Assembly (NCBI GenBank): GCA_025526935.1
Contig: JAHLKD010000001.1
Location: 124,001 to 188,000 of the forward strand
Direction of reading: 5' to 3'
DNA: 64,000 nucleotides
From: Cladochytrium replicatum
Taxonomy: Eukaryota > Chytridiomycota > Chytridiomycetes > Cladochytriales > Cladochytriaceae
In this document: piece after piece, positions 10,660 to 54,567 of the stretch
How positions within the stretch are numbered: the stretch's first letter is position 1
Layout: each line of letters opens with the position of its first letter
The notes under the pieces: generated by a model
What the model saw: only the letters and a program-made list of their open reading frames with translations
What the model was told of the DNA's origin: nothing
The model's database searches: none
Translations under genes and position numbers: made by a program

Positions 10660-13641
10660 TCAAAAAAGAATGAAAACACCTGCACGCTCCTTGTACTCTG
10701 CAACAGTGTCAGCTGAATGTTCTTCCAGTTCGTCAGCAGGTTCCCAGGAGTCATCAGAGGGCGGATAGCCTAACCAACGCACACGAAACTGGAGTTTCCC
10801 GCGATGTTTCCGGTGAGCCACTATTCGTTCGACTTCATACCATTCACCATCTTCTTCGAGCTCCGGTTCTGGCCTATCTCGACCTTGCTGCCGGGGAGCA
10901 GGAGGTTCATGCTTCTTCAACATTGAAACATGAAACCAAGGATTGACACGAGAAAACTTTTTGGGAAGTGCAAGACGGTAGGTGTCATACTTGCCCACTT
11001 CCTCAACGACAAATGGACCAACCCAAGATTCCGATAGTTTCCGTTGATAGAACTTCATATGCTTGGTGGTGAGCATAACATCGTCTCCAACTTTGAATAT
11101 TGGAATTGGCCTCTTAGTGTCCTGAGCTCTTTTATAATACTCCTGATATTCTGAATAAAGTGTAGTGCACTGGATTTGCAATTCCCTCAATCGATCGACT
11201 AGTCTTTCTGCATCAGCTGACCGTAGGGCACGATGTTCTGACGAATCGATAAGGGCTCCTGGACCAGTGGGATTATATCCCAAATCCTGTTCAAATCTGG
11301 TAACTCCCAAAGGTTCATTACTGGCTCGAACTTGTGAATTGATTGCGAACTCAACCATCGGAAGGTAACGCTCCCATGCTAACCCACAGTCATCCCCATC
11401 GTACACTGCATCAGCTAATTTGGATAGAACTGCAACTGCCAATTTCACTGTGCTCTCTGCATATGGATTAGCCTGTGGATGATGAGCTGTACTAGAATGC
11501 TGCTCGATTCCCAATCGCTTCAGGACTGTCTGCGTCATCCCACTAACAAAGGCAGATCCTCTATCTGATGTGAATCTCTCTGGTAAACCATGGAGTGGAT
11601 AATATCTCTCGTATATCAAATTGCCAACTTCTTCGGATGTTGGGTTGATGTTACACTTGTAGAGATGACATCGTGAAGAGAAGCAGCAGACTACAACAAG
11701 AATGCCAATCAATGGATGACAACCACAGAATGGACCTGCATTGTCTAAAGATGAATGAGCCCAACGACCAGTTATGGCTGCAATATTCCGGAGGAAAGTT
11801 GAATGAGGGGGTGCTCGGGCATGATCTTGACACACCTGGCAACCTTTGACCCATCTCCTGATCTTATGCAGCATCTTTGGAAACCAGAAGACTGTAGCTA
11901 ATGCAGCAAACATTTTTTCAGCAGAAAAATGACCACCTCTTTCATGTCTATCCTGGAGGATAGTTGCTTCGGCAACCTCAGTTGGTACAAATACCTTCCA
12001 ACCTCCAGCATTATGATACAGAATATTATCTATAAATTCCCAAGAGGTGGCAAAGACTCGCTCTTGCTCACTGCATTGCTTCAAATCTCCATTATTTTTT
12101 TCTATAATTGCTAGATAACGCTGTGCTGGCTTTTCCAAATCCTGAACACGCTCACGCCTCCACTGTTCATCACGATCGTCCCACCAGCGTGACACTGCAG
12201 AATTATCTTTGAACCGTAGCACCATAGCTTGAGCTTGCATTGGTTCTGTCCAAGCTTGACTAATTGCAACTTTTGTCACTGCTTTGAAAAACTTCCCTAA
12301 CTCATTTGAGCTGGCATCATCAGCCTGGCCTGAAGAAGAAGTCCCAGCAAAAAGAGGTATGCTGTTTAGAGCATTCTGGTCTAACTTCTCTGATCGTTTG
12401 GTGAGAAGCCCAGTTTGTTGGAGTGCTGAAACAATTTCCAGTCCAATGTTTCCCTGTGGAGGGGAAGATTGGCCAACTGGAAAGCTCTGGAAAACATCCG
12501 CTGTAGGTCCATGATAATCACTAGTTCCAAGTGTTTTCACTGTTGGTACAGCTGCATCTTTCAAAACAAATTGGGCAGATGGTAAAACTGGGGAAGCTTG
12601 TTGTGATGCCGAGTCCTTTGGTCCAAGCTCTTGCATATCGGAGTGCTGATCGTCAGATGATGATGACACTGCAAGTAATGCTCGAATCTGATCACGATCC
12701 CTCTTCAATCTGTCACATTCAGCAATTGATAAATCCAAAGCTTCACGCAATTTGTGGTTGGCCCTGCATTCTGCTCGCCACAGACCACAAAATCGATCTG
12801 CCAACGTTGGAGGTCCATTTTCGTTTTGTGAAGAGACCTCGCTCCCACGCCCGCTCTGCTGCGCCATTTCGCCGTCGGGTATGTTGGCGCGATCCAAACG
12901 AGTGCGAAGACTGGCTCCGGCAGCCTTCACTGAGGCCAATTCCGCCTCTACCAGTTCGGCCTCGATGCGGAGTTGGCTGGCAAGCTCTTGGGACACCTTC
13001 AACTGCTTCTCCAAGTCATCCAGAGCTGAAACTCGCTTTGCCTCCACCGATCGAGCCGTCTCTAGCTCCGCTGCAGCACTGGCTGCCTTGCGCCGTGCTT
13101 CCGCTGCATTCTCCTGTGCAACGCGAAGCTCTCGACAAGCACTAGCCAGTTCCTGCTGCAGGTCTGCCAAGTTTTGGCCAATTCCATCATGGTTCGATAA
13201 ATCGGCATCCCAAAAATCGGTCTGGGTCTGGGAATCAGTCCAACGCTTCTCTCCATCGTCCTCGACATCAGGAACATCAATGGGATCAAGCTGATCCGTC
13301 GCCAGAACCAAGTTATCCGCAAGCGCCGAGCACTGCATCACAAGTGCATCGTTCTCGATTTCAAGCTGCTCGAGCGATACGGCCGATTCAGCGCGTCCCT
13401 CTTCACGCGCACAGTTTAGCAATTCCACAAGTGCATTCGGGACAGCGATCTGGCCAGATCCAATACTGGCCAAAAATCCAGCAACGTCCTCCAATGAATA
13501 CATCAACAAAAACGCATTCCTCCACGCATTGCGAGGTTCCCCCAAGCGCTCCGCAAGATGCCGCAATCGTTCCCGAGGTTCCAAAGGCTGTCCAACATGA
13601 GCCCTCGCCACGCGATCCTGAACCCTCGAAGTTGTCGACAT
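10660..13641 (-). CDS. Gag-integrase-chromodomain fusion ORF of the deleted chromovirus
   Basis: A single uninterrupted frame of 993 codons starting at the ATG 13639-13641 (MSTTSRVQDR); the frame stays open upstream to 13788. Residues about 1-430 are the gag N-terminal part, including a long Ala/Glu-rich coiled coil at about 145-260. The capsid-like segment runs to ERVQDLEK. The frame then jumps to PAQRYLAI, the start of integrase. The integrase zinc motif (RHERGGH..CQVCQDH), the catalytic D, D and E (LDNAGPF, TSDRGSAF, YAESTVK) and a C-terminal chromodomain (EWYEVERIVAHR..RVRWLGYPPSDDSWEP) are all present. Gag and pol use different frames in the parent element, yet the 4,175-bp deletion joins them in frame. 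It lacks protease and reverse transcriptase. A protein with gag assembly, integrase and chromatin-targeting parts is plausible; activity is inference. Confidence 0.85.
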   Translation of the reverse strand: MSTTSRVQDRVARAHVGQPLEPRERLRHLAERLGEPRNAWRNAFLLMYSLEDVAGFLASIGSGQIAVPNALVELLNCAREEGRAESAVSLEQLEIENDALVMQCSALADNLVLATDQLDPIDVPDVEDDGEKRWTDSQTQTDFWDADLSNHDGIGQNLADLQQELASACRELRVAQENAAEARRKAASAAAELETARSVEAKRVSALDDLEKQLKVSQELASQLRIEAELVEAELASVKAAGASLRTRLDRANIPDGEMAQQSGRGSEVSSQNENGPPTLADRFCGLWRAECRANHKLREALDLSIAECDRLKRDRDQIRALLAVSSSSDDQHSDMQELGPKDSASQQASPVLPSAQFVLKDAAVPTVKTLGTSDYHGPTADVFQSFPVGQSSPPQGNIGLEIVSALQQTGLLTKRSEKLDQNALNSIPLFAGTSSSGQADDASSNELGKFFKAVTKVAISQAWTEPMQAQAMVLRFKDNSAVSRWWDDRDEQWRRERVQDLEKPAQRYLAIIEKNNGDLKQCSEQERVFATSWEFIDNILYHNAGGWKVFVPTEVAEATILQDRHERGGHFSAEKMFAALATVFWFPKMLHKIRRWVKGCQVCQDHARAPPHSTFLRNIAAITGRWAHSSLDNAGPFCGCHPLIGILVVVCCFSSRCHLYKCNINPTSEEVGNLIYERYYPLHGLPERFTSDRGSAFVSGMTQTVLKRLGIEQHSSTAHHPQANPYAESTVKLAVAVLSKLADAVYDGDDCGLAWERYLPMVEFAINSQVRASNEPLGVTRFEQDLGYNPTGPGALIDSSEHRALRSADAERLVDRLRELQIQCTTLYSEYQEYYKRAQDTKRPIPIFKVGDDVMLTTKHMKFYQRKLSESWVGPFVVEEVGKYDTYRLALPKKFSRVNPWFHVSMLKKHEPPAPRQQGRDRPEPELEEDGEWYEVERIVAHRKHRGKLQFRVRWLGYPPSDDSWEPADELEEHSADTVAEYKERAGVFILF

Positions 13642-13789
13642 ATTGTGCTCAGAAAAATGCGTAAAATAATCGAAACTGATCGCCCGTAATTCTGAGTAAT
13701 CAGGGAAGTGTTTGTGTAGCCGGTAATACGTTCCTGAGTGAATGCACAAAAAGGTCCAAAAATGGTGGGTCCTGGATGAAACCACCACC

Positions 13790-14258
13790 TGTTAAAAACC
13801 AAGGGCTTCTCCTGGCAGCGGTAGGGCGTGTTTAGCTGTACTTTAGCTAGCACAACAGCTCCAGGTTCCGTCTCTTGGCCCAGTTGAATATGGGGTGATG
13901 ATAAAGCAAATTCCCTTGTTGCACACAAGCACTCTGTGGCTAATACAAATCAAGGCTGGGATTGCTAACCAGGAAGACTGTGGTGTGTGAGTGTTTGGTT
14001 TGTTCCACTGTCTCCTTTATTTATACCTGTGGTGTGTGAGTGTTTGGTTTGTTCCACTGTCTCAAGGAACCAGCCACCCTCACACCGCAATAAATATTCC
14101 CACACAGAAGAATATTCAACAATTACAACAAAGAAAATAAACAGCATGACTGCCCAAAGCATAAATCGAGCAATAGCATAAAAACTTCTCAAGCCCAAGA
14201 GAAAAGCCTATTGCACAAAACAATGGGTAAGCCCTCCAAGGGTACACAGAATTTAACA
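13790..14258 (-). repeat. 5' LTR of the deleted chromovirus
   Basis: A 469-bp LTR ending next to the TCAAG duplication. It carries the reverse complement of TCATCACCCC, as in the 5' LTR of the full copy, plus two private changes (acaacaaag for acaataaag and aaagcata for aaaacata). Confidence 0.93.
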
Positions 14259-16723: not shown

Positions 16724-17192
16724 TGTTAAATTCTGTGTACCCTTGGAGGGCTTACCCATTGTTTTGTGCAATAGGCTTTTCTCTTGGGCTTGAGAAGTTT
16801 TTATGCTATTGCTCGATTTATGTTTTGGGCAGTCATGCTGTTTATTTTCTTTATTGTAATTGTTGAATATTCTTCTGTGTGGGAATATTTATTGCGGTGT
16901 GAGGGTGGCTGGTTCCTTGAGACAGTGGAACAAACCAAACACTCACACACCACAGGTATAAATAAAGGAGACAGTGGAACAAACCAAACACTCACACACC
17001 ACAGTCTTCCTGGTTAGCAATCCCAGCCTTGATTTGTATTAGCCACAGAGTGCTTGTGTGCAACAAGGGAATTTGCTTTATCATCACCCCATATTCAACT
17101 GGGCCAAGAGACGGAACCTGGAGCTGTTGTGCTAGCTAAAGTACAGCTAAACACGCCCTACCGCTGCCAGGAGAAGCCCTTGGTTTTTAACA
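16724..17192 (+). repeat. 5' LTR of the full chromovirus
   Basis: A 469-bp LTR carrying the TCATCACCCC variant (near 17081-17090). A tandem block (gacagtggaacaaaccaaacactcacacaccac) is present twice within it. Confidence 0.95.
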
Positions 17193-17340
17193 GGTGGTGG
17201 TTTCATCCAGGACCCACCATTTTTGGACCTTTTTGTGCGTTTACTCAGGAACGTATTACCGGCTACACAAACACTTCCCTGATTACTCAGAATTACGGGC
17301 GATCAGTTTCGATTATTTTACGCATTTTTCTGAGCACAAT

Positions 17341-19581
17341 ATGTCGACAACTTCGAGGGTTCAGGATCGCTTGGCGAGGGCTCATGTTGGACAGCCTTTG
17401 GAACCTCGGGAACGATTGCGGCATCTTGCGGAGCGCTTGGGGGAACCTCGCAATGCGTGGAGGAATGCGTTTTTGTTGATGTATTCATTGGAGGACGTTG
17501 CTGGATTTTTGGCCAGTATTGGATCTGGCCAGATCGCTGTCCCGAATGCACTTGTGGAATTGCTAAACTGTGCGCGTGAAGAGGGACGCGCTGAATCGGC
17601 CGTATCGCTCGAGCAGCTTGAAATCGAGAACGATGCACTTGTGATGCAGTGCTCGGCGCTTGCGGATAACTTGGTTCTGGCGACGGATCAGCTTGATCCC
17701 ATTGATGTTCCTGATGTCGAGGACGATGGAGAGAAGCGTTGGACTGATTCCCAGACCCAGACCGATTTTTGGGATGCCGATTTATCGAACCATGATGGAA
17801 TTGGCCAAAACTTGGCAGACCTGCAGCAGGAACTGGCTAGTGCTTGTCGAGAGCTTCGCGTTGCACAGGAGAATGCAGCGGAAGCACGGCGCAAGGCAGC
17901 CAGTGCTGCAGCGGAGCTAGAGACGGCTCGATCGGTGGAGGCAAAGCGAGTTTCAGCTCTGGATGACTTGGAGAAGCAGTTGAAGGTGTCCCAAGAGCTT
18001 GCCAGCCAACTCCGCATCGAGGCCGAACTGGTAGAGGCGGAATTGGCCTCAGTGAAGGCTGCCGGAGCCAGTCTTCGCACTCGTTTGGATCGCGCCAACA
18101 TACCCGACGGCGAAATGGCGCAGCAGAGCGGGCGTGGGAGCGAGGTCTCTTCACAAAACGAAAATGGACCTCCAACGTTGGCAGATCGATTTTGTGGTCT
18201 GTGGCGAGCAGAATGCAGGGCCAACCACAAATTGCGTGAAGCTTTGGATTTATCAATTGCTGAATGTGACAGATTGAAGAGGGATCGTGATCAGATTCGA
18301 GCATTACTTGCAGTGTCATCATCATCTGACGATCAGCACTCTGATATGCAAGAGCTTGGACCAAAGGACTCGGCATCACAACAAGCTTCCCCAGTTTTAC
18401 CATCTGCCCAATTTGTTTTGAAAGATGCAGCTGTACCAACAGTGAAAACACTTGGAACTAGTGATTATCATGGACCTACAGCGGATGTTTTCCAGAGCTT
18501 TCCAGTTGGCTAATCTTCCCCTCCACAGGGAAACATTGGACTGGAAATTGTTTCAGCACTCCAACAAACTGGGCTTCTCACCAAACGATCAGAGAAGTTA
18601 GACCAGAATGCTCTAAACAGCATACCTCTTTTTGCTGGGACTTCTTCTTCAGGCCAGGCTGATGATGCCAGCTCAAATGAGTTAGGGAAGTTTTTCAAAG
18701 CAGTGACAAAAGTTGCAATTAGTCAAGCTTGGACAGAACCAATGCAAGCTCAAGCTATGGTGCTACGGTTCAAAGATAATTCTGCAGTGTCACGCTGGTG
18801 GGACGATCGTGATGAACAGTGGAGGCGTGAGCGTGTTCAGGATTTGGAAAAGTTGAAGGAAGCTTTGATTGGTCGCTTCCGCTCCCCAGATTTCTTGATC
18901 CACGCCAGGCAAACTTTGGAATTTTTGCCTATTGAATCATTCCCATCATTGGATCAGCTGTTAAATGAAATGTCACGTCTTAACCAACTTGCCAAAAGTT
19001 CGCCAACAGGAAGCATCTCAGAGAACACCTTGATTCAACGTATTGTGGACCATTCAGCTTTTCCATCAACAGTTCGGGAATCATGGGACCAAGAAAGGTC
19101 CAAATTGGCTACACCATATCCAAGTCGCACTGTTGTAACAAACTTGGATATATTTGGAGTTTGGTGTGCTAAGAAGTTTTCTTACCTGAAGTCAAACCCT
19201 TTCGCTGATGCACATGCTAAGTGGATAAAAACAGCAAAGGATCCCAATGTCAAAAATGACTCAGTTGAGAATCAGCGACCATCATCATCTCAACAAAAGC
19301 CTAAAAAAGAACCGTCCGAAAAGTCAAAACGCCCCTTTCTGCCAGCAGAAGAGTTCAAAGTGAAGGTTGAAGATCCTGCGTGGCGAAAAGCAAATCCCAG
19401 TCCTTTCCCATGTCGAAACGCTGCTTGCAAAGGAGCTAAGCATTATAGACTGGACTGCCCCAATTATCGGAATCGGAGAGACAATAGTAGTGGTGCTCCA
19501 GCTACCACTTCCTCATCTTACACGATTTTCAGCAGTAGTGTAGCGAGCGGAGATTCTTTGACTGAGGAGGATTTTTACTGA
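17341..19581 (+). pseudogene. Chromovirus gag with one nonsense codon
   Basis: A 747-codon frame starting at ATG 17341 (MSTTSRVQDR) and ending TGA 19579-19581. It encodes a coiled-coil N-terminal region (residues about 145-260), a capsid-like region (SRWWDDRDEQWRRERVQDLEK, about 470-500) and a zinc knuckle near residue 691. The knuckle has spacing CX4CX4HX4C (CRNAACKGAKHYRLDC) instead of the usual CX2CX4HX4C. Codon 391 is TAA (18511-18513) where the sister element at 10660-13641 has CAA, so this is a single C-to-T change. The rest of the frame is open. Gag products from this copy would be truncated before the capsid unless the stop is read through. Confidence 0.85.
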
Positions 19582-22500
19582 GGGCCTCCCTTGAGGGCAA
19601 TAGGGTGGCCTTAGTCGAGTTAGAAGATTCTCTTTCAAAGCCCATATTCACTACAACACACAGCAGGCCGTTGGCGGACGCCCCTCCCCCTGCTAGAAAG
19701 AATCAGCATCCGAGCGCTCAGTTAAATCCACGGTATTACCGAGCATTATGTACACATTTCAACGTCTCCCCAACAGTAGATGTTTTTGGGGATGGAGCTT
19801 CAAGATTGGCAAAGCAGTTTTGGAGCAAAGATCCAATAGATCTATCAGTTGAAGGTTGTTTAGGGCCGGATCCTACCAGTTTGGGTGTTCCCTGGCCAAC
19901 TGAAGAGATTTTTTACGCAAACCCACCTCCACATCTGCTTGAGAGCTTCTTGAAAAAGGTCAGAAATCAGCGCTTAAGCTCTGCTTTATTAGTATGCCCT
20001 TATCGGACAAGGGATCGATCATTTGCTATCATCAAAGCTTTGCTTCAAGCACAACCTGTTCAATTGCCTTTAGAGCGAGACCTATTTTTACCAAGATCGG
20101 CTCAAGTACCATTCAGAAATCGGAGGAAAGACTTTTATCAGCAGAACAAGCCATTGCCTGATGAATGGGGTCCACCTAATTGGGGGCCGATTGGAGCTTT
20201 CTTGATTTCAGGAGACATTAAGAAATTGACATCCTTCCAGAATCTCTCAAATCAAGTGATTACATTTGAAAATTTGGAATCACGCCTGCTGAATCTTTTA
20301 GTCACCCCAAGTATTCAGCAGTTTTTGGCAGCAACACCAATCTACAACGTTGATCGTACTCCCCAAAATGGTTTGCACAAAAAGGTTTCTACGCTTATGG
20401 AGGCTATCACCACACCTTGGAAAGATGTGATGGATGAGGTTGTTGGGGAATGTAACACTGAAGTGACATCTGCGTTGGAAACAGATAGAGATCACCCAGT
20501 CAACCCCTCACCTCCTAAGCCAGTAGTGCCATTTTGGTGCATGGGAACTATTGATCACAAAGAGCATCCAATTATTGTTGATACTGGATCATCCATTTCC
20601 GTTGTGTCGTACAATTTATATCATGAGTTGGGACTGTCTGCTCCACGACGTGAGTGTCACGAGCCACTAGAGGGCATAGGAGGTGCCAATACTGCCACTG
20701 AGGAGATAGTGTCAGATATTGTGCTCTATGCGTATGGTGGTCGTGAATTGCGGATTGCTGTCAGGTTTGTGATGGTGCAGCACTCTAGACCCCTTCTCTT
20801 ACTTGGTATGGATGTAATCCGTCCAATGTGTTTTGTCATTTGCATCCGCCCTCTTCCTCAGCCATCATTTATGCAATCACCTCGGGATCCTATGACAATT
20901 GTACCATGTTCGTCGACCCCGAACTTGGTTCTTCGCGGGGGCAGGGAGAAGAATGGGGCAAAGAAAACACTAATAGTCTCAATGTCATCGTATTCAACGA
21001 TAGAACTGAAATCCTTTCAGGCCATATTCACCATTGAGAACATCTCTGAAATTGAAAAATCAGAGATTCGACAAGCACATTTGGAATCAAAGTTAACACT
21101 CTCACAGAAGCAGATTAGCACTCTCTGTGATCGTGCAGGAATTGATCCTTTTAATCCACCAGAAGTTCCAAATGCATTCCTGAAAGTGTTGCTTTCTGAT
21201 GGAAGATTCAATCTTGACATGCCAAGAGTGTTGGTCAAATTGACTTTGATGGTTGTATGCAAATTTCATAAGGCTTTCTCTTATCCTGGAAATGACTTGG
21301 GAGAGTTCAAGGAATTTCCTTTTGATGTGGAATTGATAGGGAAATTACCAGTAGAGCCCCCTCCCAGGAGATTCAGCCCAAAGCAAGTGGAGGCTGCCAG
21401 GAAAGAGTTTGATACATTTGCCAGGCTCAAACGATATGGTCCGATACCTGATGCAGAGTATGTTAGCGAGGTGGTTGTTGTATTCTACCCTGAAGAATCT
21501 GGGAGAACACCACGTATTACCGGAGATTATACAGTATTGAATGCTCACACAAAGTTGACTCCGTACCCTTTCACTCCAATGCACTTGGTATTACGGTGGT
21601 TACAAAATTCTTCATTTGCTGTTGCATCAGGAGGTGATCAAAATAAGGCTTTCCATCAAATTGTGTGCACAGAAAGAGCAAAGCGTTTATTAGCAATACG
21701 AATGCCTGGATCAGGGCAAGTGATTGCTCCATCACATATGCCACAGGGTCCAAAGAATGCTCCAGCTCACTTAGAAAAATGCTCAGATTTTTCATACAAA
21801 GGACTTGTATGGAAGATAATGGTGAAATATGCTGATGATCAGAACCTGTCACAAACAACTGCATTCGAGCATGTTGATGCAGTTATCCATTGGTTACGAC
21901 GGACTGTTCAGTTTGGATGGACTTTGAAGATGGCAAAGTCTTTCTTTTTGGTTGTAATGCTCAATGCACTTGGATTTGTGTTTGATCAGAAAGGCAGGAG
22001 GCCTGACCCAACCAAGTTAAGATCGGTCAAGAATTTATTGCCACCACAAACAGTTGCCGAACTTTGGATGTTTTGGGGTCTAGCCAGTTTTTATCGGGAA
22101 TCAATTCCTGGCCTGCAGACAGACTACCGAATTTTATCTGATATGATCATTGAGGCTGTCAAGCGTTATCATGCAAAGCGTCCAAAGAAGAAGGTGTCTC
22201 ACCGGGTCTCAGATGGCATCGCAGAGGATCTAAGGAGACAAGCTGATGTGGGGATTCAGCCTGTCAATGTTCCTGAAGATCTGATGCACAACGATGTCCT
22301 GAGGGTGAGAGAGAAAGACCGCAACATGAAGAAATTCATGGAGAGGTGTGAAGTACACCACTCAGCGGAATTTCTCAGTGCTTTTGAGAGGTTAAAGCAA
22401 GAACTGTGCAGTGATAGAGTCATAGCTGTAGTGCTACCTCCATATGAATATCTAATGTCACTGCATTTTGACACCTCCTATGTTGGAACTAATTTAACAA

Positions 22501-24497
22501 TCATGCAAACACAACCAGACATGACAACAAAACCAATTGCTTTTTACAGCAAGGCCTGTGGTCCAACAGAGATGAAGCTGTGGGCTACGGAGCTCGAAGT
22601 TTGGGGATTAATTACGGGACTGGAAAGTGCTGAAAGAGCCGGCTTCCTGTATGGGGATTTCCCTTTCTCAATTGTTGTAGATCATGAAGCTTTGCTGTGG
22701 TTGAAGAATTACCAAGGTTCCAACAGAAAATATGCACGAATGTGTTTGAAATTTATGGAATACGCGGATCGCGCTGTAATTGTGCATAGGCCAGGCTACC
22801 TGCATGTTGTTCCAGATGCTTTGTCACGGTTGCCTCGTACTGAGGACTCTTGGTCAGTAACACGTTCAGCTTTGTATGCAATGGATGGTTCCATTGCTGT
22901 ATCTAGTTGGATGCTGCATTGCAGTCAAAACTCCAAGCGGGAGACTTATCAGACGAGTGTGGGAACTGTAGGACCCCATACCCTGATAGAATTGTTACAG
23001 AATGAACTGCAAAAAACTCAATATGAACCAGCACAGCGTTATCTAGCAATTATAGAAAAAAATAATGGAGATTTGAAGCAGTGCAGTGAGCAAGAGCGAG
23101 TCTTTGCCACCTCTTGGGAATTTATAGATAATATTCTGTATCATAATGCTGGAGGTTGGAAGGTATTTGTACCAACTGAGGTTGCCGAAGCAACTATCCT
23201 CCAGGATAGACATGAAAGAGGTGGTCATTTTTCTGCTGAAAAAATGTTTGCTGCATTAGCTACAGTCTTCTGGTTTCCAAAGATGCTGCATAAGATCAGG
23301 AGATGGGTCAAAGGTTGCCAGGTGTGTCAAGATCATGCCCGAGCACCCCCTCATTCAACTTTCCTCCGGAATATTGCAGCCATAACTGGTCGTTGGGCTC
23401 ATTCATCTTTAGACAATGCAGGTCCATTCTGTGGTTGTCATCCATTGATTGGCATTCTTGTTGTAGTCTGCTGCTTCTCTTCACGATGTCATCTCTACAA
23501 GTGTAACATCAACCCAACATCCGAAGAAGTTGGCAATTTGATATACGAGAGATATTATCCACTCCATGGTTTACCAGAGAGATTCACATCAGATAGAGGA
23601 TCTGCCTTTGTTAGTGGGATGACGCAGACAGTCCTGAAGCGATTGGGAATCGAGCAGCATTCTAGTACAGCTCATCATCCACAGGCTAATCCATATGCAG
23701 AGAGCACAGTGAAATTGGCAGTTGCAGTTCTATCCAAATTAGCTGATGCAGTGTACGATGGGGATGACTGTGGGTTAGCATGGGAGCGTTACCTTCCGAT
23801 GGTTGAGTTCGCAATCAATTCACAAGTTCGAGCCAGTAATGAACCTTTGGGAGTTACCAGATTTGAACAGGATTTGGGATATAATCCCACTGGTCCAGGA
23901 GCCCTTATCGATTCGTCAGAACATCGTGCCCTACGGTCAGCTGATGCAGAAAGACTAGTCGATCGATTGAGGGAATTGCAAATCCAGTGCACTACACTTT
24001 ATTCAGAATATCAGGAGTATTATAAAAGAGCTCAGGACACTAAGAGGCCAATTCCAATATTCAAAGTTGGAGACGATGTTATGCTCACCACCAAGCATAT
24101 GAAGTTCTATCAACGGAAACTATCGGAATCTTGGGTTGGTCCATTTGTCGTTGAGGAAGTGGGCAAGTATGACACCTACCGTCTTGCACTTCCCAAAAAG
24201 TTTTCTCGTGTCAATCCTTGGTTTCATGTTTCAATGTTGAAGAAGCATGAACCTCCTGCTCCCCGGCAGCAAGGTCGAGATAGGCCAGAACCGGAGCTCG
24301 AAGAAGATGGTGAATGGTATGAAGTCGAACGAATAGTGGCTCACCGGAAACATCGCGGGAAACTCCAGTTTCGTGTGCGTTGGTTAGGCTATCCGCCCTC
24401 TGATGACTCCTGGGAACCTGCTGACGAACTGGAAGAACATTCAGCTGACACTGTTGCAGAGTACAAGGAGCGTGCAGGTGTTTTCATTCTTTTTTGA
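19566..24497 (+). CDS. Chromovirus pol polyprotein (protease, RT, RNase H, integrase, chromodomain)
   Basis: An open frame of 1,643 residues in the -1 frame relative to gag. It overlaps the gag end by about 15 nt at a T5 run (gaggatttttactga). No early ATG is present, so -1 frameshifting is the likely route. From a GTG at 19605 (used for numbering) the order is as follows. A module of about 150 residues (58-205) contains DVFGDGASRLAKQFWS and FYANPPPHLLESFLKK and resembles the Dam-like methyltransferase module of DIRS elements. Then come protease (DTGSS, about 326), RT (GGDQNKAFHQI and YADD at about 742), RNase H (HFDTS, ELEVWG, VDHEALLWL, DALSRLP), integrase (HX3H..CX2C, then D, D, E) and a C-terminal chromodomain (about 1570-1625). 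No stop or frameshift is visible, so pol looks intact. Confidence 0.92.
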   Translation, partial: GGFLLRASLEGNRVALVELEDSLSKPIFTTTHSRPLADAPPPARKNQHPSAQLNPRYYRALCTHFNVSPTVDVFGDGASRLAKQFWSKDPIDLSVEGCLGPDPTSLGVPWPTEEIFYANPPPHLLESFLKKVRNQRLSSALLVCPYRTRDRSFAIIKALLQAQPVQLPLERDLFLPRSAQVPFRNRRKDFYQQNKPLPDEWGPPNWGPIGAFLISGDIKKLTSFQNLSNQVITFENLESRLLNLLVTPSIQQFLAATPIYNVDRTPQNGLHKKVSTLMEAITTPWKDVMDEVVGECNTEVTSALETDRDHPVNPSPPKPVVPFWCMGTIDHKEHPIIVDTGSSISVVSYNLYHELGLSAPRRECHEPLEGIGGANTATEEIVSDIVLYAYGGRELRIAVRFVMVQHSRPLLLLGMDVIRPMCFVICIRPLPQPSFMQSPRDPMTIVPCSSTPNLVLRGGREKNGAKKTLIVSMSSYSTIELKSFQAIFTIENISEIEKSEIRQAHLESKLTLSQKQISTLCDRAGIDPFNPPEVPNAFLKVLLSDGRFNLDMPRVLVKLTLMVVCKFHKAFSYPGNDLGEFKEFPFDVELIGKLPVEPPPRRFSPKQVEAARKEFDTFARLKRYGPIPDAEYVSEVVVVFYPEESGRTPRITGDYTVLNAHTKLTPYPFTPMHLVLRWLQNSSFAVASGGDQNKAFHQIVCTERAKRLLAIRMPGSGQVIAPSHMPQGPKNAPAHLEKCSDFSYKGLVWKIMVKYADDQNLSQTTAFEHVDAVIHWLRRTVQFGWTLKMAKSFFLVVMLNALGFVFDQKGRRPDPTKLRSVKNLLPPQTVAELWMFWGLASFYRESIPGLQTDYRILSDMIIEAVKRYHAKRPKKKVSHRVSDGIAEDLRRQADVGIQPVNVPEDLMHNDVLRVREKDRNMKKFMERCEVHHSAEFLSAFERLKQELCSDRVIAVVLPPYEYLMSLHFDTSYVGTNLTIMQTQPDMTTKPIAFYSKACGPTEMKLWATELEVWGLITGLESAERAGFLYGDFPFSIVVDHEALLWLKNYQGSNRKYARMCLKFMEYADRAVIVHRPGYLHVVPDALSRLPRTEDSWSVTRSALYAMDGSIAVSSWMLHCSQNSKRETYQTSVGTVGPHTLIELLQNELQKTQYEPAQRYLAIIEKNNGDLKQCSEQERVFATSWEFIDNILYHNAGGWKVFVPTEVAEATILQDRHERGGHFSAEKMFAALATVFWFPKMLHKIRRWVKGCQVCQDHARAPPHSTFLRNIAAITGRWAHSSLDNAGPFCGCHPLIGILVVVCCFSSRCHLYKCNINPTSEEVGNLIYERYYPLHGLPERFTSDRGSAFVSGMTQTVLKRLGIEQHSSTAHHPQANPYAESTVKLAVAVLSKLADAVYDGDDCGLAWERYLPMVEFAINSQVRASNEPLGVTRFEQDLGYNPTGPGALIDSSEHRALRSADAERLVDRLRELQIQCTTLYSEYQEYYKRAQDTKRPIPIFKVGDDVMLTTKHMKFYQRKLSESWVGPFVVEEVGKYDTYRLALPKKFSRVNPWFHVSMLKKHEPPAPRQQGRDRPEPELEEDGEWYEVERIVAHRKHRGKLQFRVRWLGYPPSDDSWEPADELEEHSADTVAEYKERAGVFILF

Positions 24498-42567: not shown

Positions 42568-45084
42568 ATGAACAAGCAAGGTCTCTACACAATCGACGTG
42601 CCCGGCGCTCCGGACATCCCCGGTGAGGGAAAGGTACTGTAACTACTTCCTAATCTATGCAATGACGCCCTCATGCTCAAATCCAATTCGTAGCCGAGAA
42701 AGGCCGCCCTCTTCGCAGACGACAAGGAAGTCGACATGATCCCCGGAATCGCAAACCTCTACGACAATTTTCTCCACGGAGTCAAAGTCGCCGGTATGTT
42801 CAAACACCCCCCTCCTCGCATATCCACATCCATCACCCTTAACACAGATGTTTTTCTCTTTTGAAGGAAACGACCCGTTCATGGGCATCCGTCCCACCGT
42901 GAACGGTGAACCAGGTCCGTATGTCTGGCAGACCTACAACGAGATCCACCAGCGGATCAAGGACCTCGCGGCTTACTATAAGATCTTGGGTCTGGACACC
43001 AAAGCCAACGTTGGCTTGTTTTCGATCAACAGGCCCGAGTGGGTATGTATTTGAGTTTGTGTGAATGTGTCGGGTGATTGTTTTGGCGTGTGCTCGCGTG
43101 ATCGTGGGAATTCGCGAATTGGGCACTGATTCTGAGAGGATAGATGTCATGACGCTCCGCGCCATTGACCTTGAGAGAAATGAAGACTGATGCTTCGCGC
43201 CATGAACCTCCCTTTATGGTTCTATTCTCCCATTACTTTCAAACCAATGCATACCCACATTTCCCCCTCCCCCAACAGATCATTGGAGAGCAAGCATCGT
43301 TCTACGTCAACATGATCACCGTACCGCTGTACGATACCCTTGGCGTCGAAGCCATCGAGTACATCGTCACTCAGACCTCCATGTCAGTCGTCGTTGCCAC
43401 CAGCGATAAGGCAAAGACCCTCGTTGGTATGCGCGACAAGATTCCCACCCTGAAGACCATTATTGTGATGGATGAAGCGAGCGACGAGCTGGTCGCTTCT
43501 GCCGCCGGTCACATCAAGGTCATTGGCATCCTTGACGCGGAGAAGGAAGGACGCGCCAAACCCGTCGATGCTAACCCACCAGCATCCGACGACGTCGCTA
43601 CCATTTGCTACACCTCCGGAACCACTGGTGAGTGATTATTGATATGAGATCTCAGATAATCGCTTAATTTTTGTGCTCGCTCAGGTCTTCCCAAAGGTGT
43701 TATGATGACCCACCGCAACATGCTCGGCTTCCCCGGCTCCGTAATGGCCCTCATTGGCCGTGGCAAAGTATTCCCCTTTACGAAAGAGGACGTCCACATC
43801 TCCTACCTTCCACTCGCCCACGTTTTCGAGCGCGAGGTCCAGATCGTTGTCCTCTACGTCGGCGGCCGGATCGGTTTCTACCAAGGCGACACACTCAAAC
43901 TCCTCGACGACGTAGCGGTCCTCAAGCCCACTCTCTTCGCATCCGTCCCGCGCCTGTACAACCGCATCTACGACAAGGTTCTAGCGAGCGTGAAGGCAAA
44001 GGGCGGCCTCGCGGCGTACCTCTTCAACGCCGGTTTCCAGGCCAAGAAGAAGGGTCTTGCCGCAGGCAACGTAACGCACTTCCTGTGGGACCGTCTTGTC
44101 TTTGGCAACGTCCGTGCCCGTCTGGGAGGTCGTGTCAAGGTCATGATGTCCGGTGCAGCGCCGATCTCCGCCGACGTCGTTGATTTCCTCCGCATCTGCT
44201 TCTCCACCGAGTTCCACGAAGGGTGAGCCAAAAAGCCCTTTCTAACCCCTCCAGGAATCTAAACTGTTCATTCTTTTTTGTAAAAGTTATGGGCAAACCG
44301 AGACCTGCGCCGCCATCTCCATCACCGACCGCCACGACCTCCAATCCGGCCACGTCGGCGTCCCGCTCCCCTGCCTCCAAGTCAAACTCATCGACGTCCC
44401 GGCGATGGACTACACCTCTAAAGACAAGCCCTTCCCGCGCGGCGAGATCGCGCTCAAAGGCACCAACGTCTTCCCGGGGTACTACAATTCCCCCGAGAAG
44501 ACCGCCGAGGCCTTCACTCCCGACGGCTGGCTCCGCACCGGCGACATTGGACAATGGGACTCAAAAGGTCGTCTCCAAATCGTCGACCGTGTCAAGAACA
44601 TCTTCAAGCTCGCGCAGGGGGAGTACATTGCGCCTGAGAAGATTGAGAACGTGTACATCAAGCACGAGCTGGTGGCCCAGGCGTTTGTGTACGGCGACTC
44701 GCTGCAGGCCCAACTCGTGGCGATTATAGTGCCCGACGAGGAGACGTTTGTGAAGTGGGCAGACGGAAAGTTTGGAGCCGGGAGGGGCTACGCGAAACAC
44801 GCGGCGGACGACGCGGTCAGGAAGGCGCTGTGCAAGGAGCTCGAGGCGTTTGGAAAGAAGAATGACTTGAAAGGGTTTGAGAACATCAAGGCGCTTTACA
44901 TTGACACCAAGGAGTTCTCGATGGAGAACGGATTGTTCACGCCCACTTTCAAGTTGAAGAGGTGAGCAAGGAGAGAAAAGAGTTTCTTTGGTCCTGATGT
45001 GTTTTCTTTTTTCTCAAAAGGCACGAGGCGAAGAAGTATTATGAGACCCAGATTGCAGAGATGTACGCCGAGCTCACAAAGTAG
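42568..45084 (+). CDS. Long-chain acyl-CoA synthetase, copy 1
   Basis: This enzyme activates long-chain fatty acids to acyl-CoA with ATP (AMP-forming). Seven exons (42568-42633, 42694-42793, 42867-43042, 43279-43627, 43685-44222, 44287-44961, 45021-45084) give 655 residues. The ANL-superfamily signature is YTSGTTGLPKGVMMTH (split by intron 4). Also visible are SYLPLAHVFER, the linker/A8 region WLRTGDIGQWDSKGRLQIVDRVKNIFKLAQGEYIAPEKIE, YGQTETCAA and the C-terminal NGLFTPTFKLKR with the active-site Lys context. The C-terminus (AELTK) has no peroxisomal PTS1. Intron 3 is unusually long (236 nt; others 52-73). It is the only copy on the plus strand; the start is fixed by the shared N-terminus MNKQGLYTIDVPGAPDIPGEGK-type motif. 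Confidence 0.93.
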
Positions 45085-45668: not shown

Positions 45669-47192
45669 ATGCACACCAGATTGGAGCTATTCGTTACCGG
45701 CGCTATTCTCGTCTGTTTCTCGGTGTCCGTGGTGCACGCCTCCGACCAGGACATTGCAGTGCAGCTCTCGAACACAGGAATCAAGGATCTCAGCGGCATT
45801 TCAGTCCCGTCTGTCATCTCCCCGCTCAACGTCTTCCATGCCCTCTCGCTTCTCTTTGCCGGTAAATAGGAACCAAAAAGACCGAAAGCCTTCCGCCCCC
45901 CGCCCCCCCCCCCCCCCCCCCCCCCCCAAAAAAAAACAAAAATAAACCATAACAGGGATCCTAACGTTTGTTTTTCTTTTGCTTAGGCCTCACCAACACC
46001 ACCGCCTTCTCCACGATCCTCGACGGCAACTCCCCAACCTCCGTCATCAACGGGATCTCCACCCTACTGCAAACCTCCATCCCGGCCTCCCTGACCACCA
46101 CCAACCTCTCCATCGCTAGCGTGGCCTTCCTCAACCCACAGGTTGTCGGCGCCCCATCCGAATCCTACAACTCCAGCCTCGCAAAACTCAACGCCAGCGT
46201 AGTGCTCAACACCAACCTGAAAGCCGCAGACGTGAACACCTGGATCTCCACGCAAACCCGCGGCAAGATCGACAATGTGGTCAAGGACTCGGACGTTGCG
46301 GGCAAAACCGTCCTCGTCTCCGCGCTGTACTTCCAAGACCACTGGCTCAAAGAATTTGCGCCGACTTCGTCTCCGATCGCGTTCGCGACGCTGCCGTCTG
46401 CAAGTAGCACCCAGATCCAACACACGAACCTCAACGCGATGGTTTCCGAAGTGTCCACCCTCGTCGAAACCGACGCGTTCATCGGCTTCAGCAAGCCGTT
46501 CCTGCCGATGCAGCAGAAACAGTCCCCGTTCACTGCGTACTTTTTCATGGCGAAGCGCGAGATCGGAAAGGCTGACCTGACTGCGAACGCCTTTCCGACC
46601 GCCGCCGAACTCGCCAGCTTTGACGCCAAGACGGTCTTTGCGGACAAAAACCTGTTCAATGGCGTCGCGACGGTCAAAGTCCCCGCGGTGGTCGAGGTCA
46701 GCTCCCAAGTCAACCTGCTCACAGAATGGGCCAAACTGCCCAAATACGCGCCGCTCCTGCGAACGTTTGGGTTCCTCGGCGCACGAGAGTTTTTGATCGA
46801 ACAGGCTATTCATGTCGCAAAGGTAAAACAAAAAGAAACAGATCTCCGAAGAAAGGGAGATTCCGTTGAGGCCCACAGCGTGATTTTCTTCTTTTGGTGT
46901 TTTTCAGGTAAAAATTGATAAGGAAGGTTTCGAAGGCGCCGCGGTGACCGTGTTGATCGGAGACGCTGTGAGCGCTGGTCCTGGAAGCTCTAGGAATGTC
47001 ACCTTCGATCGACCATTCGGGTTCCAGATCGTTCACACGCCTTCGAATGCGGTGTTGTTCCACGGCGTGTATACGCCCAGCGGGGTGATCTCGGACAAGG
47101 TACCCACTGCGACGGGTGGAGCCGGAAGAGGGGCAGGTCTCTTGTGGATTTCGGTGTTGGCGAGCATTGCGGTGGTATGGATTTTGGCTTGA
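45669..47192 (+). CDS. Secreted serpin with probable GPI-anchor signal
   Basis: Three exons (45669-45861, 45987-46822, 46908-47192) give 437 residues. An N-terminal signal peptide (LELFVTGAILVCFSVSVVHA) precedes the serpin fold. Serpin landmarks appear in order: SPLNVFHALSLLFAG, VNTWISTQTRGKIDNVV, VLVSALYFQDHWLKEF, FLIEQAIHVAKVKIDKEGFEGAA (the hinge) and FDRPFGFQIVHTPSNAVLFHG. Counting 14 residues from the hinge puts the scissile bond at Val-Ser (AV/SAGPGSS), which would suit an elastase- or subtilisin-like protease. The hinge is odd: P17 is Lys instead of Glu and P14 is Phe instead of Thr/Ser, so inhibition by loop insertion is not certain. The end (GAGRGAGLLWISVLASIAVVWILA) looks like a GPI-attachment signal. 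Serpins are rare in fungi. A decayed second copy follows at once. Confidence 0.88.
45903..45928 (+). repeat. C26 homopolymer in serpin intron 1
   Basis: An uninterrupted run of about 26 C, preceded by further C-rich sequence from 45894, followed by an A run. It lies inside the 125-nt first intron, close to the splice donor. Length errors in assembly are likely. Confidence 0.9.
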
Positions 47193-47403
47193 ACCAACAT
47201 TACTTTTTTTGAGTTGGAAATGGTCCGTGTCTGAAAAATTGATTTCCGGTTCAGTTTTCTTTTTTTGTTTGTTGTTTATGCCAGGGTTGCGCCAAAAATT
47301 GTAGTATAATATGTGCGTTCCCAAACTTATTTTACGGCGGCGAATTCGTCGCGAGAGCTGAGCTTTTTGGCTGACAGTTTAGAAAAAAAGTCTGTTCAAG
47401 CGT

Positions 47404-47760
47404 GTGGCGACGCTCAAAGTTCCCGCGGGTGGTGGAGATAGGCTCCAACGTCAACTTGCTCGCAGAATGGCGCAAATACGCGCCGATCACGCACTCGTTT
47501 GGCTTTCCTTCGCACACAAGATGTTTCGATCGGGAAGGCTATTCATGACGCGAAGGCAAAAGAAGTATAGTCGATCCCAAAATTTTGGAAAAATGCGAAG
47601 CTGATTTCATTTTTAAAAGGTTAAGATTGACGAAGATGGGATTGAGGGAGCGTCGGCACCAGTGGTGATTGAAGCTGTGAGTGCCGGACCAGGGAGCTCG
47701 AAGAATCACCTTTGACGTTCGGGTTCTAGATCTATTGAATGTGGTGTACTGAAAGGAACC
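47404..47760 (+). pseudogene. Decayed serpin fragment
   Basis: Starts with VATLKVPAGG (compare VATVKVPAVVEV in the intact serpin) and then loses frame. After an intron-like gap it reads VKIDEDGIEGASAPVVIEAVSAGPGSSKN, which aligns with the hinge and reactive loop of the intact gene and keeps the same Val-Ser pair, then meets a TGA at 47714-47716. Most of the fold is missing. It is a partial tandem duplicate, 210 bp downstream of the intact gene. Confidence 0.8.
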
Positions 47761-49345: not shown

Positions 49346-51704
49346 CTACTTCGTCAGTTCATCGTACATCTCCGCGATCTGTTGGGCATAATACTCGCTC
49401 GCCTCGTGCCTAAAATTATGATGTGAGAGAACGAAATCAGTCCAAATTCGGGCACCAAAAAGCAAAACATCATCGGGCATACCGTCTTAGCTTGAACGAC
49501 GGCGTCAGCAGACCGTTCTCCATCGAAAACTCTTTCGTATCAATGTACACCGCCTTCACGTTCTCAAAACCCTTGAGATCGTTCTTCCTCCCATACTGAT
49601 CCAACAACTCACACAGAGCCTTGCGGACCTCCTGATCCGCCGCGTGCGTCGCGATCCCCTTGCCCTCGCCAAACTTTGCATCAGCCCATTTCACAAAGCG
49701 CTCTGCATCCGGCACAACAATCCCTACGAGCTGCGACCTCAACGTATCGCCGTACACGAACGCCTGCGCGACCAGCTCGTGCTTCGCGTACACGAGCTCG
49801 ATCTTTTCGGGGGCGATGTACTCGCCCTGTGCGAGCTTGAAGATGTTTTTGACGCGGTCGAGGATCTGGAGTCGTCCTTTGGAGTCCCATTGTCCGATAT
49901 CGCCGGTTCGGAGCCAGCCGTCGGCTGTGAACGTCTCGGCGGTTTTCTGCGGGTTGCGGTAGTACCCGCTGAAAATATTCGTGCCCTTTACGGCGATCTC
50001 GCCCCGGGGGTGCGGTTTGTCTTTCGAGGTGTAGCCCATATGTGGGACATCGATGAGTTTGATGTGGACGCAGGGTAAAGGGACTCCAACGTGGCCGGAT
50101 TGGAGGTCGTGGCGGTCAGTGACTGTGACTGCAGCGCACGTTTCCGTCTGTCCATATCTACGAAATAAATAGGTTCATTATTTGGCAAAAAGAATGATCC
50201 GGTTTAGATCTTGGCTTACCCTTCGTAAAACTCTGTCGAGAAACAGATGCGCAGAAAATCGACAACCTCGGCCGTTATCGGCGCGGCTCCCGAATACATC
50301 ATCTTGACACGCCCGCCCAACTTCGCCCTCACATTCCCAAAAATCAACCGATCCCACAGGAAATGCGTATACGTCCCCTGCGCAAGACCCTTCTTCTTCG
50401 CCTGGTATCCCGCATTGAACAGATAGGCCGCCAACCCGCCCTTCGCTTTCACGCTCGCCAAGACCCTATCGTATATCCTGTTGTACAGTCGTGGCACAGA
50501 CGCAAAGATGGTCGGTCTTAGTGCGGCGACGTCGTCGAGAAGCTTTAGTGTGTCGCCCTGATAAAAGCCAACGCTTGCGCCGACAAACATGATGATCACG
50601 AACAGCTCACGCTCGAAGATGTGCGCGAGGGGGAGATACGAGATATGGATCTCATCTTTGGTGGACGGCCAGAGTTTGCCACGGTTCATGAGGGCGATCA
50701 TGGAGCCGGGGAAGCCGAGCATGCTGCGATGGGACATCATCACACCTTTAGGAAGACCTACAAGCCATCAAATAGTCGATTCAAGAACCCTACAATAAGA
50801 CCAGCCCGAATTGTTTACCAGTGGTGCCAGAGGTATAGCAGATAGTTGCGAGGTCGTCAGGACTGGGGGGTGACGCTTCAGCCGGCTTTGCGCGTCCTTC
50901 AATCTCCGCATCGTCCATCCCAATAACGTTGACCCTACCAGCAGCGGCCTTTATAAGTCTTCCATTCAGCCCGTCCATAACGATAATAGTCTTTAACGTC
51001 GGGATCTTATCAAGCATGCCCACAAGGATCTTTGCTTTGTCTCTCGTCGCGATGACCACTGGCATCTCGGTTTGTGTGATGATGTACTCTATCGCCTCTA
51101 TCCCGAGTGTATCGTAAAGCGGTACGGTGATCATGTTCAAATAATAGCAAGCTTGTTCACCGATAATCTGCACAAAAACTTAGGTTGGGTACCCGATACT
51201 TCAAGGTCGAACTCACCCACTCAGGACGATTGACTGAAAACAAACCGACGTGCGCCTGCTCACAAAGTCCAATGATCTTCAAATAGGAAGCGAGATTCTT
51301 TACGCGCTGATACACCTCGCCGTATGTCTCCCACACATAATCCCCGGCCAACCCGTCGACTACAGGACGACGGCCTAAGAACTGATTGCTTCCTGTATTT
51401 AATAATTGATGAGCTCCAATTCCAAGTACCTAGCTTTGCGAAGAACGCTCTCTGATTAATTTACCCGAAGCATCGACTGTGCGCTTAAAGTTTTCGTACA
51501 GGGTTGTCACGTTGGGAAGCATTTCGAGTATGGGGTCTTTCGCAAAGAGTGCAGACTTTCTCGGCTGTTGGTGTGGTGGAACACATTGTGTGAGTCTTTG
51601 GGAAAACGGAGAGCGTGAGAGACGGGTCGTTTGGCTACCTTCCCCTCGCCAGGTATGTCCGGGACACCGGGAACTTCGATGGTATACTGGCCTTGCTTGT
51701 TCAT
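49346..51704 (-). CDS. Long-chain acyl-CoA synthetase, copy 2
   Basis: A minus-strand paralog of the gene at 42568 with all seven exons at the same positions: 51704-51639, 51564-51465, 51392-51217, 51167-50819, 50757-50220, 50157-49483 and 49409-49346, total 1,968 nt, 655 residues. Exon lengths are identical to copy 1. The AMP-binding motif (YTSGTTGLPKGVMMSH), YGQTETCAA and WLRTGDIGQWDSKGRLQILDRVKN are intact. It is the most diverged of the three: exon 3 reads GSNQFLGRRPVVDGLAGDYV where copies 1 and 3 read GN(D/E)PFMGIRP.VNGE.GPYV, and the C-terminus reads EASEYYAQQIAEMYDELTK. Substrate preference may therefore differ. No peroxisomal tail. Confidence 0.92.
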
Positions 51705-52189: not shown

Positions 52190-54567
52190 TTACTTTGTAA
52201 GCTCTGCATACATCTCGGCAATCTGGGCCTCATAGTACTTCTTCGCTTCGTGTCTAAAATACCCAATCAATAAACTCAATTTCACAAAGTCAACTATCAA
52301 ACTCACCGCTTTAGCTTGAACGACGGTGTAAGCAACCCATTGTCCATCGAGAATTCCTTTATGTCAAGATACACCGCTTTCACGTTCTCAAAGCCCTTGA
52401 GAGAGTTCTTCTTTCCAAAGTCCTCGAGCACCTTGCAGTACGCCTTGCGCACCGCAGGGTCCGCAGCGTGCTTGGCAAAACCCTTTCCCTCGCCAAACTT
52501 GGAGTCGGCCCACCTCAAAAACGCCTCTTCGTCTGGCACAATCACACCGACGAGCTGGGCCTGCAACGAGTCGCCGTACACAAACGCCTGGGCGACGAGC
52601 TCGTGCTTCACGTACACGAGCTCGATCTTCTCTGGCGCAATGTATTCACCCTGCGCGAGCTTGAAGATGTTCTTGACACGGTCGACGATCTGGAGACGGC
52701 CTTTGGCGTCCCACTGGCCGATGTCTCCGGTCCGGAGCCACCCGTCGGCAGTAAACGCCTCAGCGGTCTTCTCGGGCGCTTTGTAGTACCCGGTGAACAC
52801 GTTCGAGCCTTTGAGCGAAATTTCACCACGGGGGAAGGGCTGGTCTTTCGAGGTGTATCCCATCTCGGGGACGTCGAGAAGCTTAACCTGAAGGCAAGGA
52901 AGCGGAACACCGACGTGGCCGGACTGAAGATCCTGACGATCGGTGACGGTGACGGCAGCGCATGATTCAGTCTGTCCGTAACTAGGAGGAAATCACTAGT
53001 GTTAGCACATATCGATTTTGATAATACCTCCCACTACTCACCCTTCGTGGAACTCTGACGAGAAACAGATGCGCAAGAAATCAACAACATCGGCAGAGAT
53101 CGGTGCAGCACCGGAGAACATCAGTTTGACACGTCCTCCCAGCCTCGCCCTCACGTTTCCAAACACCAATCGATCCCACAAGAAGTGTGTGAAAGCACCC
53201 GAGGCAAGACCCTTTTTCTTTGCGGCAAAGGCGGTGTTGAACAGGTACAACGCGAGACCACCCTTAGCGTTCACGCTGGCAAGAACCTTGTCGTAAATCC
53301 TGTTGTAGAGACGTGGAACGGATGCAAAGATGGTGGGCTTGAGGACAGCCACATCGTCGAGGAGCTTAAGGGTGTCACCCTGGTAGAACCCGGCACGGCC
53401 ACCAACGTGCATGACAATGATGAAGATTTCACGCTCGAAAATGTGGGCGAGAGGGAGGTATGAAATGTGGCAATCGTCCTTGTTCAATGGAATGATCTTT
53501 CCACGTCCCATGAGTGCCATGATTGAGCCAGGGAAGCCGAGCATTTGGCGATGGGTCATCATCACACCTTTAGGGAGTCCTAAAGGTCAAGTTAAGACCA
53601 TTTAGCGGAATAAGTCACATTCATGTCAATTATTCCACACACCAGTGGTTCCAGAGGTGTAGCAAATCGTCGCAATATCTTCACAACGAGCAGGGGTGGC
53701 CTCTATCGGCTTGGAGTGCCCTTCCTTCTCCGCATCATCAAGGCCGACAACTTTAATGTCCCCGCCGGATTGGACGAGAGCATCGTCTGCCCCATCCATG
53801 ACAATAATCGTCTTCAAGGTAGGTATTTGAGCACGCATCTCCAGGAGGACCTTTGCCTTGTCCTTGGTGGCAATGCAAACAGACATGTCTGTCTGGGTAA
53901 TGATGTACTCAATGGCCTCAACGCCAAGTGTGTCGTAGAGTGGGACCGTCACCAAGTTGAGGTAGAAGCATGCTTGCTCTCCAATTACCTTCGAACAAGA
54001 AAAGTGTCAGTTCAGAGTGCCCAATAACAAACCGGTTTACGGGGAATTTTTCTCTCAAATTCATCCCAAATGATTCAGCACCCGCTCAAGTTGAAACTCA
54101 CCCATTCGGGACGGTTGATAGAGAACAAACCAACGTTGGATTTCGGCTCGAGGCCAATTATTTTGAAGTAAGCCGCCACGTCCTTCACTCGCTGGAAGAC
54201 TTCGTTGTAGGTTTGCCAGACATACGGACCCGCCTCTCCGTTGATAATAGGACGTATACCCATGAACGGCTCGTTACCTAACGTGCTGGACGTAAGATAT
54301 GCAACCCCACACCAAGATGGTTGTTCAAGTTGTTTCCATACCGGCGATCTTGAGAGCGCGAAGGAAATTCTCGTAAATGGAGGTAACGCCGGGAAGCATG
54401 TCGACCTGCGGGTCCTTTGCGAAAAGGGCAGCCTTCCTGGGCTGAGGGACAAAATGGGTTAGCCAAAGTTAACCGGAGTGATCATGCAACAAGAATCGCA
54501 CCTTTCCCTCACCGGGAACATCAGGGGCATCCGCGACTTCTACGGTGTACTGGGAAGTGTTGCTCAT
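52190..54567 (-). CDS. Long-chain acyl-CoA synthetase, copy 3
   Basis: The third paralog, in tandem with copy 2. Exons are 54567-54502, 54441-54342, 54277-54102, 53988-53643, 53579-53042, 52981-52307 and 52253-52190; total 1,965 nt, 654 residues. Only exon 4 differs in length, by one codon. All AMP-forming synthetase motifs are present (CYTSGTTGLPKGVMMTH, YGQTESCAA, WLRTGDIGQWDAKGRLQIVDRVKN). It is closer to copy 1 than to copy 2 in the N-terminal region (GNEPFMGIRPIINGEAGPYV). Start MSNTSQYTVEVADAPDVPGEGK is homologous to the other two. The reaction is fatty acid plus ATP plus CoA to acyl-CoA; location is not shown by a clear signal. Confidence 0.93.

Follow-up and report, generated by a model that had tools for sequence, protein, structure and literature searches.

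The analysed window, 64,000 nucleotides of Cladochytrium replicatum (Chytridiomycota, Cladochytriales), contains a three-exon gene at 45669..47192 on the plus strand whose 437-amino-acid product, P0001, is a genuine serpin. It is an evolutionarily isolated variant of a known family and no new kind of system; we consider it moderately interesting on account of its hinge, this isolation and a probable anchor at the C-terminus. On balance we favour, with some reserve, the view that P0001 is a secreted, N-glycosylated serpin, most likely tethered outside the cell by a glycosylphosphatidylinositol (GPI) anchor, and that it acts by suicide trapping on an elastase- or subtilisin-like serine protease, one that cleaves behind a small aliphatic residue. 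Inhibition and its target are inferred here, as are signal cleavage, glycosylation and GPI attachment. A broader proposal, which we hold more tentatively and at somewhat less than even chances, is that Cladochytrium possesses a separate serpin lineage, lipid-anchored at the C-terminus and inhibiting with a reset hinge (P17 Lys, P14 Phe, P12 Gly), whose members would be single-use traps on the surface of a zoosporic fungus.

The gene, its paralog and the serpin fold

The window corresponds to positions 124001-188000 of contig C1 (1,498,356 bases) in an assembly of 50.5 Mb and 198 contigs. Enumeration of GT-AG introns within the interval gave two open models, of 437 and 432 amino acids, the last acceptor being their sole difference. 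The longer one is 100% identical over its whole length to the NCBI/nr protein P0001, thus an outside annotation chose the same splice sites, and the three-exon gene of the original prediction is borne out. Since that record already bears the name 'Serpin domain-containing protein [Cladochytrium replicatum]', the gene itself is not unknown; it is known to NCBI under a generic name, yet we found no description of it.

Exon 1 (45669..45861, 193 nucleotides, ending in phase 1) encodes the predicted signal peptide and helix A, exon 2 (45987..46822, 836 nucleotides) the serpin body, and exon 3 (46908..47192, 285 nucleotides) the hinge, the reactive loop, the s1C-s5B region, a C-terminal tail and the stop codon. 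Intron 1 (45862..45986, 125 nucleotides) has the same position and phase as in the paralog described below, and intron 2 (46823..46907, 85 nucleotides, phase 0) the same position. Intron 1 contains a long poly-C run at about 45896-45928, the assembled length of which may be unreliable.

The assignment to the serpins was originally based on landmarks (NTW..TRGKI, the hinge, FDRPF..LFHG), which are indeed present and in order. Pfam PF00079 (Serpin) matches P0001 at 96.1 bits against a curated cut-off of 27 (E 3.3e-27), and it is the only Pfam family found at E<=10. The nearest solved structures by sequence are conserpin and leukocyte elastase inhibitor (3.7e-13 and weaker), and a profile made of the two paralogs matches MENT at 4e-17 and 65.5 bits. 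A first AlphaFold model, from a 9-row alignment, was weak (predicted local distance difference test, pLDDT, 58.3) and still matched serpins; in the second, built on the 40-row alignment A3, P0001 has the serpin fold with its loop modelled as inserted, as expected from the original prediction. Thus P0001 has in common with the superfamily (MEROPS I4) the profile, the modelled fold, the hinge-loop-s1C-s5B layout and the P15-P1 length, and it differs from other members by P17 Lys, P14 Phe, P12 Gly and a hydrophobic C-terminal extension. No match outside Cladochytrium with a coverage above half of the protein exceeds 27% identity. A fungal serpin is therefore well supported by these results, and it is probably secreted.

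The serpin profile finds three stretches in the assembly, which are two parts of the P0001 gene and one gene on contig C18. The latter encodes P0002 (439 amino acids, 60% identical to P0001 over 91%); its exons 2 and 3 are again 836 and 285 nucleotides long, and its introns, in phases 1 and 0 as in the P0001 gene, measure 51 and 54 nucleotides. A genome search with the P0001 protein returned nine stretches, among them further fragments on contig C7 and, within the window, downstream of the gene. Could the gene be a product of misassembly or contamination, or be dead? The poly-C run and the decayed copy next door are the grounds for such a suspicion. Against it stand the length of the contig, the eukaryote-type genes in the window such as RasGEF, the intact reading frame, and a paralog of the same structure on another contig, from which the gene differs by fewer amino-acid-changing than silent substitutions (pN well under pS). 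We consider an artefact extremely improbable and reject it.

Reactive loop and hinge

We counted P positions from the P15 glycine (G350); P1 is also fixed by the Val-Ser-Ala kept between the paralogs. By this count P1-P1' is V364-S365 (codons 46968..46973), the Val-Ser bond that had been predicted, and P0002 likewise has Val-Ser. The hinge from P17 to P8 (residues 348-357, 46920..46949) reads K E G F E G A A V T, with K348 at P17 and F351 at P14, and the reactive centre loop extends to s1C over residues 350-376 (46926..47006). Two hallmarks of inhibitory serpins are present, namely a P15 glycine followed at the canonical distance by P1 (15 residues, G350 to V364) and small residues at P12-P9 (G A A V in P0001, G A A A in P0002).

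Other positions of the hinge were compared with the 38 non-fungal serpins of A3, an alignment whose 40 rows include P0001 and P0002 and leave out P0028, L026, L028, L029, L037, L040, L041 and L042 (near-copies, partial, overlong or simply not taken). In this set P10 is Ala in 37 of 38 and P8 is Thr in 36. The following points weigh against inhibition. The consensus Glu at P17, found in 38/38, is Lys in both fungal paralogs. At P14, where inhibitory serpins have a small uncharged residue (Thr in 30/38), P0001 has Phe, uncharged but large, which occurs in 2/38 (P0012 and P0023); its P12 Gly is also uncommon (4/38, against Ala in 34/38). P17 and an aligned partner position form a salt bridge, as is known from antitrypsin work; the partner is Lys or Arg in 30/38 and Ala in P0001, so that with P17 Lys the usual bridge seems to be absent. 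Finally, segments 18-22, 260-265, 364-376 and 402-423 of the 40-row model lie under pLDDT 50, and a loop that is modelled as inserted says little on kinetics. The original remark that P14 Phe and P17 Lys are unusual was thus correct (P17 Lys is found in none of the 38), and because of the lysine in both paralogs we do not file P0001 as a proven inhibitory serpin.

It is possible, though in our opinion unlikely, that P0001 is a non-inhibitory serpin which kept the fold and, with this odd hinge, is cleaved by proteases as a substrate or serves at the surface in binding, in adhesion or in a chaperone-like role. The P17, P14, P12 and partner residues are what speaks for it. Yet P15, P13 and P11-P8 fit the common pattern, the P15-P1 length is canonical, and P1-P1'-P2' was kept while the remaining loop diverged. 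Moreover, P14 Phe together with P12 Gly occurs in P0012 and P0023 alongside P17 Glu. According to the excerpts of the papers that we cite here and below, charged residues at P14 turned PAI-1 into a substrate and loop length was critical (PMC6379291), and Arg at P14, P12 and P10 led to a loss of activity (PMC6329500); Phe at P14 is not addressed in the excerpts of either. Since the published P14 data penalise charged residues, P14 Phe alone does not exclude inhibition. Judging from the sequence, P0001 is likelier to inhibit proteases than not, even though its hinge is unusual, and it offers a concrete case for asking whether a serpin with P17 Lys and P14 Phe can still trap them.

P0012 (from Natronosporangium) and P0023 both have the hinge GFEGAAAT, and the same count gives Val-Ser as P1-P1' in P0012 and Ala-Ala in P0023.

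Within the loop (residues 358-372) the two paralogs agree at only 4/14 positions, which are Val at P7 and Val-Ser-Ala at P1-P1'-P2', as compared with 6/7 in the hinge (P15-P9) and 26/27 in s1C-s5B. The contrast of loop and flanks (P15-P8 plus 373-399, 33/35 in agreement) has a Fisher p of 6.6e-6; against the whole body (26-349, 194/324 in agreement) p is only 0.026. Such a contrast between loop and flanks is the expected outcome where the trap and its cleavage site are conserved and the targets change. A claim of positive selection on the loop is precluded by the saturation of silent sites (pS 0.767 overall).

Under the inhibitory reading that we prefer, a protease would cut Val364-Ser365 and be held as an acyl-enzyme on P1, whereupon the loop strand would insert into beta-sheet A and disable it. 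The C-terminal fragment, which carries the anchor, would not leave sheets B and C, hence the dead complex would remain on the cell surface. Cleavage at Val-Ser is in keeping with elastase- or subtilisin-like enzymes, and in the C. replicatum assembly 53 stretches match the subtilase profile and 6 the trypsin profile. The fungus's own secreted subtilases and those of its neighbours are both possible targets; the likely use would be the shielding of the fungus's surface proteins from its own subtilases or from those of competing microbes.

The two ends of the protein

A signal peptide and a hydrophobic C-terminal tail had both been proposed, and by hydropathy both ends of P0001 are indeed hydrophobic. 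The predicted signal peptide comprises residues 1-24 (45669..45740), the cut after VHA being placed by the rule for signal-peptide cleavage; P0002, whose N-terminus was judged by eye, agrees, and in the two paralogs the hydrophobic segment ends near VHA/VHG. All 5 sequons of P0001 are sequons in the same columns of P0002, whereas other Asn residues are kept at 9/16.

The C-terminal extension past the serpin fold comprises residues 400-437 (47076..47189) with a hydrophobic end at 421-437. After the last conserved serpin glycine there are 41 residues in P0001 and 42 in P0002, while 35/38 of the other serpins end 3-10 residues after it, the exceptions being P0024 (46 residues, with a second Pfam domain), P0027 (22) and P0025 (19). 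The last 17 residues have a mean hydropathy of 2.55 in P0001 and 2.17 in P0002, and hydropathy was kept although only 3/18 tail residues are identical. In both paralogs small residues precede the hydrophobic end and nothing follows it; the candidate omega residues of P0001 are A411, G413, G414, G416 and G418.

The original claim of GPI anchoring gains good, though indirect, support from the kept hydropathy of the tail and from profile matches to Gaa1 of the GPI transamidase in five stretches of the genome. Our rule, which passes P0001 and P0002 and 0 of P0003-P0028, is a self-made combination of hydropathy and small residues that was set after the tail had been seen, and it also passes 6/459 other reading frames; both facts reduce its weight. 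Since the hydrophobic end stands by itself and is preceded by a linker with basic residues, it could instead be a plain membrane-spanning segment, or it could be cut off and the protein released, with no GPI anchor in either case. We find this rather improbable, at about one chance in four: both paralogs end with the last residue of the hydrophobic stretch, which is the layout of a GPI signal, candidate small residues lie 3-10 (P0001) and 4-12 (P0002) positions before it, and Gaa1 is encoded in the genome. To judge by its residues, the tail of P0001 probably receives a GPI anchor.

Surface anchoring had been described as a different design for a serpin, which is true in part. A loose N-terminal lipobox pattern is matched by 24/38 of the non-fungal serpins, though some matches may be due to chance (the pattern matched 25/40 rows of A3 including P0001, a eukaryotic protein in which it has no meaning). 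A lipid anchor on a serpin is thus probably not new in itself, with the lipobox at the opposite end of the protein; what differs is the hydrophobic C-terminal end, nothing comparable to which was seen in the 38. If the anchor is real, the serpins, of which mostly soluble members have been studied, would gain a membrane-tethered format. Vaccinia K2 is a serpin displayed on a membrane, where a partner protein holds it; the structure matches include PDB 9hl2, K2 with A56 according to the entry title.

Relatives, origin and surroundings

The original prediction named only the Neocallimastigomycota as fungi with known serpins. These are indeed reported to have them, but so are the Entomophthoromycotina (PMC8778642), and a Metarhizium serpin has relatives in Trichophyton, Aspergillus and Fusarium (PMC13236867), so the statement was too narrow. 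The celpins of anaerobic gut fungi (Piromyces) are, like P0001, extracellular fungal serpins, but they are components of cellulosomes and contain CBM_10 modules (PMC8778642). P0001 has no second domain, only Serpin being found at E<=10 and neither CBM_10 nor a dockerin, and is therefore not a celpin. The myco-serpin of Metarhizium brunneum, an insect pathogen, also has a predicted reactive loop and was compared with Drosophila Serpin 42Dd; its domain occupies 13-365 of 365 residues, hence it lacks a tail like that of P0001 (PMC13236867).

Protein searches with P0001, the P0001+P0002 profile and a nine-row profile gave 9, 10 and 22 proteins, about 7,995 candidates being scored each time. The sole fungal names among the matches are the two of C. 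replicatum, though most matches are nameless, so the absence of other fungal orthologs is not shown by this. No paper with both Cladochytrium and serpin was found in the literature searched, nor did titles and abstract openings describe this gene or a GPI-anchored serpin, subscription literature being mostly outside that scope.

Few serpins are on record from fungi, and in the published superfamily tree the fungal ones are unplaced, unclassified orphans (PMC8233489). A two-member, intron-bearing chytrid family with a probable C-terminal lipid anchor is a case on which fungal-ancestor serpins can be weighed against transfer. The gene might have been acquired from a bacterium as a Bacteroidota-like serpin, gaining introns and a eukaryotic C-terminal anchor afterwards; we regard this as a minority possibility. 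The orphan status of fungal serpins is compatible with it. Among 43 rows scored with the two-paralog profile (P0024 and P0028 left out), the top foreign scores belong to L025 (81.0 bits), P0003 (74.6) and L024 (71.1), which are Bacteroidota or 64-69% identical to Bacteroidota serpins. The margin is small, since MENT reaches 65.5 bits with the same profile (leukocyte elastase inhibitor, the 4ga7 stretch, has 56.3), and Bacteroidota were sampled through P0003. In the 40-row tree, which further dropped P0025-P0027 and has three PDB chains as its only eukaryotic rows, the fungal pair has no placed neighbour, and its stem is 3.2 changes per site long. Among 395 genomes of the bacterial phylum of G001 there are 6 with a match at E<=1e-10, and G001 itself has the top score (78.5 bits), so no closer donor was found in that one phylum.

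The Bacteroidota serpins (P0003, L024, L025, L027, L030 and others), which give the best foreign scores, differ from P0001 in having P17 Glu, P14 Thr and 5-10 residues instead of 41 after the last conserved glycine; several match the lipobox pattern and are thus probably lipid-anchored, at the N-terminus. P0003, L024 and L025 share with P0001 Ser-Ala after P1. P0003 even has S-A-G-P-G-S directly after P1, as does the fungal gene (46968-46988), despite 27% overall identity. This may be taken in favour of a bacterial origin, but the motif is absent in P0002 and its sharing is perhaps convergent.

A second serpin copy, partial and decayed by stops and frame shifts, lies at 47386..47732 (+) and was detected by tblastn, blastn, three-frame translation and the genome search. 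It matches exon 2 at its end and a portion of exon 3; the retention of sequence on both sides of the place of intron 2 suggests a duplication at the DNA level. Its hinge has P17 Glu and P14 Ile, unlike both intact genes, and it reads AVSAGPGSS in its loop, which has one residue fewer than the loop of the intact gene. Another broken copy (L021, G000:C7:193500-198500) is closest to P0002.

Around the serpin gene and its relic there are three AMP-binding (acyl-CoA synthetase-like) frames at 44246-44965 (+), 49473-50174 (-) and 52306-52992 (-), probably a local cluster of duplicated ligase genes. The window also contains two retroelement copies with integrase and chromodomain, at 10660-13791 (-), in whose frame Pfam matched no reverse transcriptase, and at 17191-24497 (+); by eye they share long stretches.
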